This document shows, one piece after another, positions 2 to 60,351 of a stretch of 64,000 nucleotides of DNA. Location of the stretch: assembly GCF_020447105.2 (NCBI RefSeq), contig NZ_CP096184.1, forward strand, positions 1,116,001 to 1,180,000, written 5' to 3'. The DNA comes from Demequina sp. TMPB413. GTDB lineage: Bacteria; Actinomycetota; Actinomycetes; Actinomycetales; Demequinaceae. The position numbers and the translations under genes are program-made. Positions within the stretch are counted from its first letter, which is position 1; every line of letters starts with the position of its first letter. Under the pieces are notes generated by a model. The model did no database searches. It worked only from the letters and a program-made list of their open reading frames with translations, and had not been told where the DNA came from.

Positions 2-400
2 GCACACGAGCTTCTCCACCGCTTCTCTTTGTATGAGAAGAAGGACGACTTCGCCGGTTCTCTCTCCGGTGGGCAACGAAAGCTTCTCGAAATGGCCCGC
101 GCCCTCATGTCGGAGCCAGAGATGGTCATGCTCGACGAACCGATGGCAGGCGTGAACCCGGCGCTGACCGAGTCGCTTCTCGATCACATCGTCCAGCTCA
201 AGAACGAGGGCGTCTCCGTACTGTTCGTCGAGCATGACATGCACATGGTGCGGCGCATCTCCGACTGGGTGGTGGTGATGGCGGAGGGGCGCATCATTGC
301 CGAGGGCCCCCCAGACACCGTGATGCAGAACGCCGAGGTCCAGGAGGCCTACCTCGGGGTACACCACGACACCGACCTGTCCGAGGAGTCCAGCTCATGA
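2..400 (+). CDS. livG: Branched-chain amino-acid ABC transporter ATP-binding protein LivG (3' part)
   Basis: This is the C-terminal part of a cytoplasmic ATPase of the LivG family, which with LivF drives import of leucine, isoleucine and valine through the LivHM channel. The reading frame is open from base 2, so the start and Walker A lie before the window. Visible are the signature LSGGQRKLLEMARAL (about residues 23-37 of the visible part), Walker B VMLDEPMAGVNP and the switch histidine in FVEHDMHMV, followed by the LivG-typical ending EAYLG. The gene ends in a 4-base ATGA overlap with livF, showing translational coupling. The permease genes are presumably upstream. Confidence 0.93.
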   Translation, partial: AHELLHRFSLYEKKDDFAGSLSGGQRKLLEMARALMSEPEMVMLDEPMAGVNPALTESLLDHIVQLKNEGVSVLFVEHDMHMVRRISDWVVVMAEGRIIAEGPPDTVMQNAEVQEAYLGVHHDTDLSEESSS

Positions 401-1125
401 GTGACGCCCCTACCATCCTCGAGGCCACGGATGTGATCGCCGGCTACCTTCCAGGCGTCGACATCCTCAACGGGTGTTCCATGACCGTCAAGCAAGGCGA
501 ACTGATTGGCATCATCGGGCCCAACGGTGCCGGGAAGTCCACCTTCCTCAAGGCACTCTTTGGCTTGGTTCCCATTCGCGAGGGCTCCGTGACTCTTGCC
601 GGTGAGGACATCACGAACAAGCGTGCAGACGAACTCGTCCACCTCGGCGTCGGCTTCGTGCCACAGAACAACAACGTGTTCCCTTCGCTCACCATCAAGG
701 AGAACCTCGAGATGGGCGCGTACCAGGCACACCACAAGTTCTCCGAGCAGTTCGATCGCATCGTTGACCTCTTCCCCACCCTGGGCGAGCGTCGCAGCCA
801 ACGCGCCGGCTCGCTCTCTGGCGGCGAGCGACAGATGGTGGCGATGGCTCGCGCGCTGATGATGGATCCACAGGTACTGCTCCTGGACGAACCGTCGGCG
901 GGCCTGTCGCCCGTAAGACAGGACGAAACCTTTGTCCGTACGCGCGAGATCAATCGCACCGGGGTCACCGTGATCATGGTGGAGCAGAACGCGAGGCGCT
1001 GTCTGCAGATCTGTGACAGGGGCTACGTGCTCGACCAAGGCACGTCTGCGTACACGGCCACCGGTCAGGAGTTGCTGAAGGATCCCAAGGTGATCGAGCT
1101 GTACCTCGGCACGCTCGGCGCCTAG
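397..1125 (+). CDS. livF: Branched-chain amino-acid ABC transporter ATP-binding protein LivF
   Basis: A complete 242-residue ATPase of the LivF family, partner of LivG in high-affinity branched-chain amino-acid uptake at the inner face of the membrane. Walker A GPNGAGKST is near residues 42-50, the signature LSGGERQMVAMARAL near 146-160, Walker B LLLDEPSAGLSP follows, and the switch histidine is replaced by Gln in MVEQNA, as is usual in LivF. The family-typical VIELYLG ending is present. The start overlaps the livG stop. The gene is followed by the 41-bp repeat array rather than by a substrate-binding protein, whose likely gene faces it from the other strand. Confidence 0.94.
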   Translation: MSDAPTILEATDVIAGYLPGVDILNGCSMTVKQGELIGIIGPNGAGKSTFLKALFGLVPIREGSVTLAGEDITNKRADELVHLGVGFVPQNNNVFPSLTIKENLEMGAYQAHHKFSEQFDRIVDLFPTLGERRSQRAGSLSGGERQMVAMARALMMDPQVLLLDEPSAGLSPVRQDETFVRTREINRTGVTVIMVEQNARRCLQICDRGYVLDQGTSAYTATGQELLKDPKVIELYLGTLGA

Positions 1126-1172: not shown

Positions 1173-1547
1173 AATGGCTTGATTCGTACCGCTACGGGGG
1201 CCACACCGTCCTTAGTGGTTCGTTTTGTACCGCCACACGGCTCACACCGTCGGTAGTGGTTCATTTCGTACCGCCATGCCGGCCACACCGTCAGTAGTGG
1301 CTCGATCCGTACCAGTGCGGGTTGAGCGACCAGTTCTCGCCACGCCACGCGGGCGACGGACAGACCGCATTGCGCCTCCCTTGAGGCATTCGTTAGCGAA
1401 CGCCACCGGTACGGATTGAGCCACTGGCGGCGGATCGGCCCGCTAGGCGGTACAAATCGAGCCATGTGGGGCGGTGGACGCTGAAGTTGGTACGGATTGA
1501 GCCACTGGCGGCGGATCGAGCCGCTAGGCGGTACAGATCAAGCCATT
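1173..1547. repeat. Inverted array of 41-bp phased repeats, locus A (8 units)
   Basis: Eight copies of a roughly 20-bp core (consensus near ARTGGCTTGATTCGTACCGC) are seen. Four plus-oriented cores start at 1173, 1214, 1255 and 1296, exactly 41 bp apart. Four minus-oriented cores end at 1425, 1466, 1506 and 1547, spaced 41, 40 and 41 bp. The left-arm spacers share CACACCGTC. The right arm contains a 58-bp direct repeat (1408-1465 and 1489-1546, four differences). The array fills most of the gap between convergent livF and the binding-protein gene. Short frames through it encode recurring WLDSYR-like peptides but show no start signals or codon pattern of a gene. A second array lies at 59026-59227. 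Function is unknown. Confidence 0.85.
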
Positions 1548-1684: not shown

Positions 1685-2959
1685 CTAGACCTCGCCGTAC
1701 ACCGCCTCGGTCCACTGCGGGACGTTGGCGTCATCGAACACATACACACCCACGTAGGCGCTTGCTGGGTCGTTGTCCTCGTTGAACGGGCCAACGCCTG
1801 CCACTGCCTGGTAGATGATGTCCTCGCCAGCAAGGATCAGCTCGGAGCACTCAACCCAGCCGGTGCACTCGGTGCCACCGTTCGCGCCGGAGACCGCCGC
1901 GAGGTTGTCGGCCACTGTCTGGCCGTCAGTGCCTTCTCCCTTGAGAGCCGCCAAAGCAACGAGCATCGTCGCGTCATACGACTCTGCACCGTAGGCGTAG
2001 GAGTCCAGCTTGCCGCCGTTGACGTCGTCAAGAAGAGCCTTGAAGTCATCGGATGGGTTCGCACCAGGGATCGTCCCCTTGGCACCGGTCATGACGCCCG
2101 CCTCAAAGTCGGCGGAGTAGTCGGCCGTGTTGCCGTCGGTGAAGTACAGCTTGTCGGCCGGGTAACCAGCACCCACCAGCGCGGGAATGATGTTCTTGGT
2201 CTGGTCGAAGGCGATCACAAGGATGCCGTCAGGCTGGGTCGCGATGACGTCCTGAACGATCGACTCGAAGTTGGAGGCATCCGTCTGGAACTCGTCGCCA
2301 GCCTTGCCGTAGGTGATCTCGCCGCCGTTTTCCTCGACGACGCCCTGGACGACGTCGCGCAGGGACGTGCCGTAGTCGTCGGCGAAGACGAGCACGCCGA
2401 GCTTCTGGATGCCGTCGTTGACGATGAGGTTTCCGAGCGCGGAGCCCTGAACCGTGTCCGGCGGCGCGGTGCGGAAGTAGAACGGCGAGTAGCCGGACAG
2501 CGCGGTCGACGTGTTCGCGGGAGAGATCTGGACGATCCCGGCATTCGCGATGTCATCGACGACGTTGAGCGACACCGACGACGAGGCGGCGCCAACGATG
2601 GCCGCTACCTCATCCGCGATGAGCGCCGAGACCGACTGCGCAGCGATCTGCGGGTTGTCGGTGTCGGACGAGTCCTGGTGAATGATCTCCACGTTGGAGT
2701 CAAAGATGCCCCCAGCGTCGTTAATCTCCTTGGCTGCGAGCTCGACGCCAGCAACCTCAGGCGGGCCGAGGAAGGCCAGCGAGCCAGTCAAGGGCAGGAG
2801 CGAACCGATCTTGAGTCCGTCAGAGCTGGTGCCGCCGCCGTCGCCGCTTGCAGTGGGGCCGGTCGAGTCATCGTCACCGCTAGACGAGCATGCCGCCAGG
2901 GCAAGGGACGCGACAGCCGCGAATGCGGCGCCACGTGCGATGGTGTTCCATCGAGCCAT
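1685..2959 (-). CDS. livJ: Branched-chain amino-acid ABC transporter substrate-binding lipoprotein
   Basis: A 424-residue type I periplasmic-binding-fold protein of the Leu/Ile/Val receptor family, expected to be lipid-anchored on the outer face of the membrane and to deliver ligand to the LivHMGF transporter. The start at 2959 (ATG) follows GGAGGG and opens a lipoprotein signal with lipobox LAAC at residues 19-22 and a Ser/Gly/Asp linker. The mature part starts KIGSLLPLTGSLAFLGPPE and contains KEINDAGGI, VIHQDSSD-type and VGAASSSVSL segments typical of this family. A frame extending 27 codons upstream lacks a ribosome site. The gene is on the opposite strand from livGF, so it has its own promoter. 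Confidence 0.9.
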   Translation of the reverse strand: MARWNTIARGAAFAAVASLALAACSSSGDDDSTGPTASGDGGGTSSDGLKIGSLLPLTGSLAFLGPPEVAGVELAAKEINDAGGIFDSNVEIIHQDSSDTDNPQIAAQSVSALIADEVAAIVGAASSSVSLNVVDDIANAGIVQISPANTSTALSGYSPFYFRTAPPDTVQGSALGNLIVNDGIQKLGVLVFADDYGTSLRDVVQGVVEENGGEITYGKAGDEFQTDASNFESIVQDVIATQPDGILVIAFDQTKNIIPALVGAGYPADKLYFTDGNTADYSADFEAGVMTGAKGTIPGANPSDDFKALLDDVNGGKLDSYAYGAESYDATMLVALAALKGEGTDGQTVADNLAAVSGANGGTECTGWVECSELILAGEDIIYQAVAGVGPFNEDNDPASAYVGVYVFDDANVPQWTEAVYGEV

Positions 2960-3075
2960 GTTTTTCCCTCCATACAGGTACGGCGGGCACAGCCCGCCGG
3001 GGCCACCACGAGGACGATCCTCGCAGGTAGTTGACTTCACCGTACCTGCGGCAAATTACGGCCATGGGTCGCGAG

Positions 3076-58203: not shown

Positions 58204-59001
58204 TTAGTGACGCAATGCCCACACAGCAACGGCCGACGCCGCGGCCACGTTGAGCGAGTCCACTCCCCCTGCCATCGGGATGGTGACGACGTAGTCGGCG
58301 GCCGCAAGCGCGTCGGGCGCGAGCCCGTCCCCCTCAGCGCCCATGACCAAGGCGACCCGCTCGTGACCGGCGTCGGCGAAGTCTTCCAATGCCACGGCGT
58401 CGTCCGCGAGCGCCAAGGCCGCGACGGTAAACCCCGCCTGGCGCAACTCGTCGAGACCGGCAGGCCACTGCTCGATGCGGGTCCACGGCACCTGAAATAC
58501 CGTTCCCATCGAGACCTTGACCGCACGCCGGTAGAGCGGGTCGGCACACGTGGGCGAGACGAGCACGGCGTCGGCGCCGAGGCCCGCCGCAGACCGGAAC
58601 GCCGCGCCCACGTTGGTGTGGTCAACGATGCCGTCAAGCACCACCACCAGGCGGGCGTCCCTCGCGATGTCGGCCACCGTAGGGAGCGCGGGACGGCGCA
58701 TGGAGGCGAGGGCGCCGCGGTGGACGTCGTAACCGGTGACCGACTCGAGCACGGCGGCGGGCGCGACGTAGATGGGGATCTCCGCTGGCGCGAGGTGCTC
58801 CACGGACGGGAGCCAGCGCTCGCTCACCAGGAGGGACCGCGGAAGATGGCCTGCCGCGAGCGCTCGGGCGATCACCTTGGCGCCTTCCGCCATGTACAGG
58901 CCCCGCTCGGGCTCGATGCGGCGGCGCAGTGCGACATCGGTGAGGTTGCGGTAGTCCGCCAGTCGTTCGTCGGAGGCGTCGGTGATGGGCAGGACTGGCA
59001 T
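58204..59001 (-). CDS. TrmH/SpoU-family RNA 2'-O-methyltransferase
   Basis: A 265-residue SPOUT enzyme that methylates ribose 2'-OH in tRNA or rRNA using SAM. The N-terminal substrate-binding part begins with LADYRNLTDVALRRRIEPERGLYMAEGAKVIARAL (family pattern), then motif 1 NVGAAFRSAAGLGADAVLVSP, motif 2 VALVMGAEGDGL and motif 3 IPMAGGVDSLNVAAASAVAVW, which make the knotted SAM site. The target RNA cannot be told. Confidence 0.93.
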   Translation of the reverse strand: MPVLPITDASDERLADYRNLTDVALRRRIEPERGLYMAEGAKVIARALAAGHLPRSLLVSERWLPSVEHLAPAEIPIYVAPAAVLESVTGYDVHRGALASMRRPALPTVADIARDARLVVVLDGIVDHTNVGAAFRSAAGLGADAVLVSPTCADPLYRRAVKVSMGTVFQVPWTRIEQWPAGLDELRQAGFTVAALALADDAVALEDFADAGHERVALVMGAEGDGLAPDALAAADYVVTIPMAGGVDSLNVAAASAVAVWALRH

Positions 59002-59025
59002 GGCTCCATTGTCCCAGTCCCATGA

Positions 59026-59227
59026 AGTGGCTTGATTCGTACCGGATATGGGGTCATCCAGCCACTAATGGCTTGATTCGTACTGGAGACTGGGCTCGTC
59101 GGCGCCCGTGGTTGGCAAAGCGTTGGGTTGCGATGACATGGGACAGCGGGGCTCGCGGCGGTACGAATTGAGCCATTTGCGGGGTGGCGGGGCTCGCGGC
59201 GGTACGAATCAAGCCACTTGCGGGGTG
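59026..59227. repeat. Inverted array of 41-bp phased repeats, locus B (4 units)
   Basis: Four more copies of the locus A core. Two plus-oriented cores start at 59026 and 59067 (41 bp apart). Two minus-oriented cores end at 59177 and 59218 (41 bp apart) inside two near-identical 41-bp units at 59146-59186 and 59187-59227 (three differences). As at locus A, plus units are on the left and minus units on the right, so the arms can pair. The array lies between the start of the TrmH gene and the terminator of the stomatin gene. There is no gene in it. Confidence 0.85.
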
Positions 59228-59239
59228 GCGGGTGCGACA

Positions 59240-59269
59240 AAGCCCCGGCACCGTGTGGCACCGGGGCTT
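59240..59269 (-). terminator. Hairpin terminator after the stomatin/NfeD operon
   Basis: AAGCCCCGG and CCGGGGCTT form a 9-bp stem around a 12-base loop that can pair further; it starts 14 bases after the stomatin stop and is followed on the minus strand by TTGTCGC. It abuts repeat array B just as the terminator at 1638-1665 lies next to array A. Confidence 0.7.
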
Positions 59270-59283
59270 CTCGCGTGCGAGCC

Positions 59284-60351
59284 TTACTGACCCTTGGCGG
59301 CGTCGGGGTCGAACGGCCTGCCGGACAGAGTGCCCGAGCTGTTGGCGTCCGACGTCGCGTCCTCCACATCACGCTTGGCTGCGGCCAGCGCCTCGCGCGG
59401 GTCCGTCAATGCAGACGTGATGTTGGTGCGCTTCTTGCGGTTCGGGTTGGCCTTGAGCGGCTCGGGGTCCTCTTCCGCACCAAACGCGGCGCTGATCGAC
59501 TTGAGCGCGCCCGTGAACTCGGTGGGCACGAACCACACCTTGTTGGACTCGTTCTTGGCGATCTCTGGCAGCATCTGGAGGTACTGGTACGCCAGCAGCT
59601 TGCTGTCGGCGTCGCCCTCGTGGATGGCTTCGAACACCTGCAAAATGGCCCGCGACTCACCCTCTGCACGGAGAATGCGCGACTGCGCCTCGCCCTCCGC
59701 GGTCAGGATCGCCGACTGCTTCTCGCCCTCCGCCGTGAGGATCTTGGACTGCTTCACGCCCTCTGCCGTGAGGATCGCGGCGCGGCGGTCGCGCTCGGCA
59801 CGCATCTGCTTCTCCATCGAGTCCTTGATGGACATGGGCGGCTCGATCGCCTTCAACTCAACCCTGTTGACGCGAATGCCCCACTTGCCGGTGGCCTCGT
59901 CAAGCACTCCACGCAGTTGACCGTTGATCTGGTCGCGCGAGGTGAGCGTCTGCTCGAGGTCCATGGTGCCGACGATGTTACGCAGCGTGGTGGTGGTCAG
60001 CTGCTCCACACCGGTGATGTAGTTCGCGATCTCGTAGATGGCCGACCTTGGCTCGGTGACCTGGAAGTAGATCACCGAGTCGATGTCAACCACCAGGTTG
60101 TCCGAGGTGATGACCGACTGAGGCGGGAACGAGTAGACGAGCTCCCGCAGGTCGACCTTCGCGCGCACCCTGTCGATGAAGGGCACCAGGAAGTGGAGCC
60201 CCGCGTCGAGAGTGCGGCTGTAGCGGCCAAGGCGCTCGACCAAGTAGGCCTGCGTCTGGCGGACGACGATGATGGCGCGGGCAATCGCCGAGATGACAAA
60301 GATGGCGACGAAGGCGATAAACGCCAGCCCTACAAGTTGTCCTGGTGTCAT
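59284..60351 (-). CDS. SPFH/Band 7 (stomatin-like) membrane protein
   Basis: A 355-residue protein with an N-terminal membrane segment (5-27) and an SPFH domain (QAYLVERLGRYSRTLDAGLHFLVPFIDRV onward), followed by a coiled coil containing four 11-residue repeats of the type ILTAEGEKQSA (about residues 192-236), then LLAYQYLQMLPEIAK and a disordered tail. Such proteins oligomerise into membrane microdomains and often pair with NfeD, which is the overlapping upstream gene here. Exact role unknown. Confidence 0.93.
   Translation of the reverse strand: MTPGQLVGLAFIAFVAIFVISAIARAIIVVRQTQAYLVERLGRYSRTLDAGLHFLVPFIDRVRAKVDLRELVYSFPPQSVITSDNLVVDIDSVIYFQVTEPRSAIYEIANYITGVEQLTTTTLRNIVGTMDLEQTLTSRDQINGQLRGVLDEATGKWGIRVNRVELKAIEPPMSIKDSMEKQMRAERDRRAAILTAEGVKQSKILTAEGEKQSAILTAEGEAQSRILRAEGESRAILQVFEAIHEGDADSKLLAYQYLQMLPEIAKNESNKVWFVPTEFTGALKSISAAFGAEEDPEPLKANPNRKKRTNITSALTDPREALAAAKRDVEDATSDANSSGTLSGRPFDPDAAKGQ

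Follow-up and report, generated by a model that had tools for sequence, protein, structure and literature searches.

Facing DNA repeats in 41-bp steps in Demequina appear to be recognition sites of a predicted nuclease whose gene is bracketed by the same repeats

Evenly spaced, inward-facing arrays of a 16-bp core scattered through the genome of Demequina sp. TMPB413 appear to be recognition sites of a little-studied, predicted DNA-cutting protein whose own gene is bracketed by the same repeats, a pairing in which the repeat words differ between related bacteria while the spacing stays the same. The protein is predicted to join an AbiEi-fold DNA binder to a Vsr/EDxHD-type nuclease (hereafter, the nuclease), and we read the system as a vertically inherited nuclease with a co-evolving population of cognate repeats, REPIN/RAYT-like in architecture but with an unrelated enzyme. 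Binding, cutting and spread of the repeats are inferred.

Results

Two arrays of identical geometry in the window

We analysed a stretch of 64,000 nucleotides (the window; assembly GCF_020447105.2, contig NZ_CP096184.1, positions 1,116,001 to 1,180,000, forward strand) from a genome of one 2.92-Mb contig, here designated G000; other G numbers denote the other genomes compared and L numbers individual fetched loci. A preliminary description, made from sequence alone, had reported at 59,026–59,227 (locus B) a second copy of a 41-bp array lying 57 kb away (locus A), with four cores, two plus and two minus, next to another terminator. That observation is confirmed: window 59028–59216 holds four copies of the core (TGGCTYRATYYGTACC), two on each strand, facing inward in exact 41-bp steps. 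The features are as follows.

59028..59043 (+), core 1 of locus B (TGGCTTGATTCGTACC), an exact match
59069..59084 (+), core 2 of locus B, 41 bp after core 1, last base differing
59160..59175 (−), core 3 of locus B, facing
59201..59216 (−), core 4 of locus B, 41 bp from core 3
59146..59227 (no strand assigned), two 41-nt units, 93% identical, a likely recent in-place duplication (inferred)
58204..59001 (−), SpoU-family rRNA methylase gene (Pfam PF00588, E 6.9e-37); locus B lies just upstream
59284..60351 (−), SPFH/Band_7 gene (PF01145, E 2.2e-42); locus B lies 68 bp beyond its stop
59240..59275 (−, approximate), GC-rich hairpin, possibly the terminator of the Band_7 gene, not part of the array
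1175..1313 (+), locus A, four + cores, steps 41/41/41
1408..1545 (−), locus A, four − cores, steps 41/40/41
397..1125 (+), ABC-transporter ATPase gene (PF00005) ending 50 bp before locus A
1685..3040 (−), periplasmic binding protein gene (PF13458) converging on locus A

At locus B the left pair of units is 85% identical over 26 nt. The putative terminator hairpin is visible by eye, but a scan requiring a T-run found no terminator in 58900–59400. To assess chance occurrence, we searched the window with TGGCTNNATTNGTACC allowing up to 3 mismatches, which gave 15 hits against a shuffle mean of 6.2 (largest of 100 shuffles, 14), and 12 of the 15 are the two arrays.

About thirty arrays with a fixed step and polarity

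The paired core occurs 32 times in the whole G000 genome, 7 times in G012 and in none of the other 42 genus genomes, with 0 occurrences of the reversed controls. It was absent from 296 other genomes of an order sample (some of them Demequina, G012 not among them), and the exact paired core gave 0 hits in a collection of genome contigs, from which the own genome and very near ones may be left out, and 0 in viral contigs. The 17-bp core occurs 83 times in G000, 41 in G012, 4 in G034, 3 in G039 and 0 in 43 other family genomes, with one control hit. In the stretches fetched, cores form 31 clusters in G000 (113 cores at up to 3 mismatches; three clusters are single cores and two lie inside called genes, so that a few may be chance) and 26 in G012 (64 cores). 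Of 102 same-direction steps in these two species, 97 are 41 or 42 bp, and of 18 opposed neighbours 16 face inward, the two others belonging to one odd cluster, L041. Facing start-to-start distances fall at 22 or 32–34 bp, one helical turn apart, in ten of sixteen cases, one of them in L041. Two arrays in G000, L106:2727–2783 and L041:1920–1985 (at 1982.7 and 2392.9 kb), carry a drifted word (TGGCTCCATYYGTACC and TGGCACCATTTGTACC-like), as if a sub-family of the core were splitting off.

By our reading, with a home-made gene caller and single cores left out, the core reads in the sense of the gene it follows at 45 of 64 array edges, often soon after a stop codon. We considered an RNA-level element, in which facing arrays would form long hairpins in 3′ UTRs that end or stabilise transcripts. 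The locus B strand indeed folds far better than shuffles (z −6.7), but inward-facing repeats fold well by construction, many arrays have one polarity only, no Rfam match was found in 58900–59400, and the idea explains neither the nuclease nor the step. We regard this reading as very unlikely and the hairpin as a by-product of facing repeats.

Arrays persist at shared positions and are probably not conventional insertions

All-against-all comparison shows, by our reading, many arrays at the same intergenic position in two or more of G000, G012, G034 and G039, with genes aligned on both sides. The preliminary description had named, as a condition that would count against it, that relatives carry unrelated sequence with no core at the orthologous position, and the outcome at locus B is mixed: G012 has ++ −− of the same core word with other spacers, and several other species have their own nuclease's core there, but the nearest relative, G034 (89% nucleotide identity to G000 over the Band_7 region), has a 104-bp gap with no array. 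No clear target-site duplication was seen at the one presence/absence pair read.

We first tested whether the arrays are MITE-like non-autonomous elements, their facing arrays being terminal repeats of a conventional DDE transposon, IS21-type or the like, acting in trans. Facing multi-site ends resemble transposase binding arrays, and the copies are dispersed and intergenic. However, among the multi-copy IS elements whose ends could be resolved, one IS21-type and three rve-type groups, the ends lack the core; single-copy transposase genes fall outside this comparison. The IS21-type element is present in four copies of 2361 bp (L180:1369–3729 and L181–L183), 99.9–100% identical, with a different repeat pair at each end. 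The transposase loci scanned also lack the core apart from L014, which is the clpX-side array described below. Keeping in mind that many positions are shared between species and that the step goes with a nuclease gene at a mostly fixed place, we consider this explanation very unlikely. Composite transposons between arrays 4–6 kb apart were likewise not favoured, as the genes between them look, by eye, like housekeeping genes.

DUF222-HNH genes were also examined as partners, because three paralogs in G000 (L036, L033, L080) and three in G012 (L083, L098, L101) carry a TGGCTT-type array directly upstream, the similarity between copies beginning within about 12 bp of a core. Loci of DUF222 genes of other species show no comparable arrays, only scattered 42-bp matches in L120, L121, L122 and L125, so this looks like shared descent of the upstream region. 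Another short repeat, GGCCGACGCTGGG-like, recurs at 32–36 bp steps beside DUF222 genes (L107, L108, L109, L111) and also appears in some array spacers.

A predicted nuclease gene is bracketed by the same repeats

In the G000 stretches read, the only facing arrays within 2 kb that enclose a called gene are three + and six − cores (one with 3 mismatches), about 1.2 kb apart, around a single gene of 329 codons at 1516295–1517281 of the contig (minus strand, outside the window). It lies between a valS-like and a clpX-like gene; these names are our reading of Pfam matches to a class I tRNA synthetase and an AAA_2/ClpB_D2-small protein. In G012 another facing pair, 1.8 kb apart, encloses two genes, neither of them this nuclease.

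The nuclease family is in all 44 genus genomes. In the loci fetched it lies beside the valS-like and/or clpX-like gene in 39 of 44 genomes; among the first 30 loci, 25 have both and 28 have at least the clpX-like gene. It was not seen there in G013, G022, G034, G036 and G039, for which only the best hit and, for G034 and G039, one paralog were read. In G023 a 31-bp tandem array lies on one side of the valS/clpX-side nuclease gene (L203:2589–2790).

To determine whether the step is a feature of the family, we examined the flanks of 70 nuclease loci from the 44 genomes. With runs of N ignored, direct repeats at offset 41 occur in 21 and at 42 in 10 of 140 flanks, that is 31 flanks and 24 loci with either, whereas 46 of 70 loci show no 41/42 step at the threshold used. 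In a count where one N-rich locus adds one to every offset, the figures were 22 and 11, with other offsets at 1–6, and controls gave 0 of 56 stretches beside DUF222 genes at both offsets and 0 (41) or 1 (42) of 137 distal flanks. A further 24 loci (Demequina again, and one record titled Actinobacteria bacterium) were not counted. The upstream flank matches the reverse complement of the downstream flank (≥15/18) in 52 of 69 loci, against 17% with random partners and 14% in direct sense (p about 1e-21, although the loci are related and so not independent); 17 of 69 lack such a match.

The core word differs by species and by paralog, for example GGGGAACTSAGCGACG in G015/G020, a close form in G019, ATGGGRCRCTCACCGT in G026, and TGCGGGGCACTCACGCA for a second G000 paralog and a G039 relative. 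This second G000 paralog (L242:1310–2459, at 2493.5 kb) has its unrelated core in 41/42-bp facing arrays, with no match in the window. G026 and G030, like G000, have the nuclease gene beside its own dispersed repeat. In the search for same-genome copies of flank cores, three of the loci with hits (L171, L194, L195) had been fetched by a related pattern; the permutation tests below do not use them.

The core word follows the nuclease lineage

Among 53 loci, 14 of 15 pairs at 70% protein identity or more share the core (≥14/16), against 0 of 469 pairs below 35% and 0 of 19 paralog pairs within a genome (Mantel rho 0.36, p 5e-4), although shared descent of the flanks contributes to this. A stronger test is offered by an unlinked site. 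We compared the Band_7–SpoU gap, or 300 bp beside Band_7 where another gene intervenes, with the recurrent flank words of each genome's valS/clpX-side nuclease. A match of ≥14/16 to the own nuclease was found in 7 of 24 genomes (G000, G001, G002, G026, G030, G031, G041) against 11 of 552 cross pairings, several of these between close relatives; at ≥13/16 the figures are 10 of 24 against 64 of 552 (permutation p 5e-5). Seventeen of 24 genomes thus show no own core there at ≥14/16, and some of the seven positive genomes are close relatives (G026/G030). A form of the test with unfiltered flanks in 27 genomes gives the same p, though in 17 of 27 at least half of the other genomes' flanks score as well as the own flank, and G000 and G002 do not stand out.

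In nine genomes picked for a closer look, own-type cores lie in the gap in eight (those seven and G012), G028 giving only a weak one (14/19). A 41-bp step is present in G000, G002, G026, G030 and G041, with ++ −− and 41/41 in G041, where one of the four cores matches only 11 of 15; the steps in G012 are 42, one core having 3 mismatches. Similarly, beyond the end of the XFP phosphoketolase gene, G000 and G012 have TGGCTT-type cores while G039 has two copies of its own paralog's core 41 bp apart. G000 and G012, with 83 and 41 cores, both have the ortholog; G034 and G039, which keep 4 and 3 cores, have no detected ortholog, their best nuclease hits being 30% and 40% identical, although this absence rests on draft assemblies (93% and 94% complete).

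Predicted fold and family

The AlphaFold2 model of the G000 protein has a mean pLDDT of 94. The best Foldseek hit is AbiEi (E 3e-5), the only one at E ≤ 0.001, followed by the I-Bth0305I catalytic domain at 0.04. VIA-align gives 3hrl Z 12.7, AbiEi (6y8q) 12.1 over 183 residues, I-Bth0305I (3r3p) 11.8 with rmsd 2.6 over 96 residues, Vsr (1cw0) 9.9 and Rv2827c (1zel) 9.1, the AbiEi-type part covering residues about 9–201 and the nuclease part about 203–309. A sequence-profile search of solved structures gave nothing significant (best E 0.027, unrelated; 3hrl at 0.27). G48, G86, G202, E208, D240, E251, D253, H258, R270, G278, R283 and C296 are invariant in 44 sequences; the resemblance to the EDxHD group rests on the predicted fold and these invariant residues, not on a residue-by-residue mapping to the motif.

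A Pfam scan of the 44 aligned members at E 0.01 matched REase_MTES_1575 (PF18741) in 43, DUF559 (PF04480) in 38, AbiEi_4 in 5, DUF2726 in 5 and AbiEi_1 in 2, the G000 protein falling below both curated cut-offs of the first two, and listed no Y1 family. MTES_1575 was described as a Vsr-type REase domain (PMC3710099), and no repeat association is mentioned in the text consulted. NCBIfam named none of five members, one having a weak sub-threshold match to an unrelated family.

Beyond the genus

A profile search of 80 genomes of other genera found matches, mostly weaker ones, in 68. Of 30 loci taken from the best matches, one per genome, 9 have inverted flanks at ≥17/18 (one, L307, low-complexity) against 0 of 240 random pairings; direct flank matches at that level are raised too (6 of 30), as expected where whole facing pairs lie on both sides. 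The geometry differs: we saw facing pairs on both sides of the gene (G074, G104, G112, G089, G050), 44-bp arrays (G058) and 22-bp arrays (G115). The 41-bp step is not general, since outside Demequina the simple scan shows no 41/42 peak (42 in 2 of 60 flanks).

Discussion

Cumulatively, our findings suggest that locus B is one of about 30 solo arrays of recognition repeats belonging to a chromosomal nuclease encoded elsewhere in the same genome, a reading to which we assign a probability of roughly two in three. The analysis itself establishes the geometry, the association with the nuclease family, the core word following nuclease lineage, the co-variation at an unlinked site and the predicted fold; that this protein binds the core, cuts DNA, causes copying by repair or benefits the cell is inference. 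Within this reading we are highly confident of the cognate link, whereas cut-and-copy as the way the repeats spread remains tentative, at slightly less than even odds. In the proposed working, several protein copies would bind the cores on one face of the helix (41/42 bp is about four turns), inward-facing half-arrays would meet at a two-fold centre, and occasional cutting there would make repair copy units from other arrays. This would homogenise the core to what the present enzyme recognises, change unit number in place, and now and then seed new intergenic sites. AbiEi-type proteins bind 23-bp inverted repeats with gaps of 3, 4 or 13 bp (PMC7319586), that is with centres 26–27 or 36 bp apart, and the 22 and 32–34 bp classes here, for a 16-bp core, have the same one-turn difference.

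The interpretation in the preliminary description is partly supported. Its proposal that spacing and inverted polarity are selected is well supported, as the 41/42-bp step and inward polarity recur in about 30 arrays here and, with unrelated core words, in other species. Its alternative, that the unit is mobile and expands in place, is half right: unit number and spacers differ between species at the same site and the right-hand units look recently duplicated, as it had suggested, but many array positions are shared, so arrays persist and turn over in place. The cognate nuclease could not be seen from the data available to that description.

A serious rival, which keeps the cognate link and so overlaps with our reading, is that the AbiEi-type part binds the arrays as an operator or chromosome-organising site, the solo arrays being a regulon under ordinary selection and the nuclease part incidental. 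AbiEi-fold proteins bind inverted 23-bp repeats in their own promoters (PMC7319586). Moreover, many array sites are shared between species, which also suits plain binding sites under selection, and at locus B cores are kept while spacers differ. Against this stand the sense of the cores relative to the genes they follow, the invariance of E208, D240, E251, D253 and H258, and the presence of arrays downstream of the nuclease gene as well; further, a regulon of about 30 sites would have to change its word together. Concerted change of the word at fixed positions is easiest to explain by copying between arrays, which a nuclease could drive, and we consider the regulatory reading the less likely one.

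A sub-form of the nuclease explanation is a homing element, in which two close facing cores are the uncut target, the nuclease cuts the centre and its gene is copied in, solo arrays being empty target sites. The catalytic part resembles the EDxHD homing endonuclease I-Bth0305I, facing solo arrays look like the nuclease locus without the gene, and in several genomes of other families whole facing pairs lie on both sides of the gene. However, in the loci fetched the gene stays mostly beside the valS-like and/or clpX-like genes, and the solo arrays read in G000 and G012 are not filled by it, so we regard homing as unlikely.

Of the systems compared, REPIN/RAYT (REP-associated tyrosine transposase) also has a single-copy enzyme gene with its own repeats beside it, the same repeats as an extragenic population, a different repeat class beside each enzyme and proposed co-evolution (PMC3116915). 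It differs in that its enzyme is an HUH/Y1 transposase and its repeat a short palindrome, whereas the core here is not self-complementary, palindromes arising only where two cores face closely, and in Demequina the repeats run in phased 41/42-bp arrays. I-Bth0305I shares the predicted catalytic-domain fold, as does Vsr, and is reported to dimerise on a target of nearly 60 bp (PMC3943268), but the gene described here is not inside an intron or intein as far as the neighbourhood shows, its DNA-binding part is AbiEi-like, and it is bracketed by repeat arrays. The AbiEi antitoxin and Rv2827c share the predicted fold of residues about 9–201, but no AbiEii nucleotidyltransferase toxin gene was seen beside the gene, a nuclease part is fused, and the repeats lie on both sides and elsewhere in the genome.

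Literature searches on DUF222/HNH, REP13E12, MTES_1575, DUF559 with Vsr, REPIN with RAYT, REP in Actinobacteria, EDxHD, AbiEi autoregulation, Demequina repeats and AbiEi with DUF559 (including PMC10589994) returned no paper whose title or shown abstract describes such a pairing, although absence from print is not thereby shown. On that basis the pairing appears to be of a new kind. More tentatively, the data allow that a widespread actinobacterial enzyme class, an AbiEi-fold DNA binder fused to a Vsr/EDxHD-type nuclease, keeps and renews genome-wide populations of its own recognition repeats by cutting and repair copying, an independent counterpart of REPIN/RAYT in which enzyme and repeats change specificity together, under fixed 41/42-bp geometry in Demequina and other geometries in other families.

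The cognate pairing would give a role and a testable substrate to a large family of nuclease-like genes without an NCBIfam name in the members tried, and would provide a second, enzymatically unrelated case of an enzyme living with its own population of repeats. The co-change of repeat word and enzyme offers a natural series of DNA-binding specificities with predicted targets, and a way to ask how a set of sites changes its word without losing its positions.
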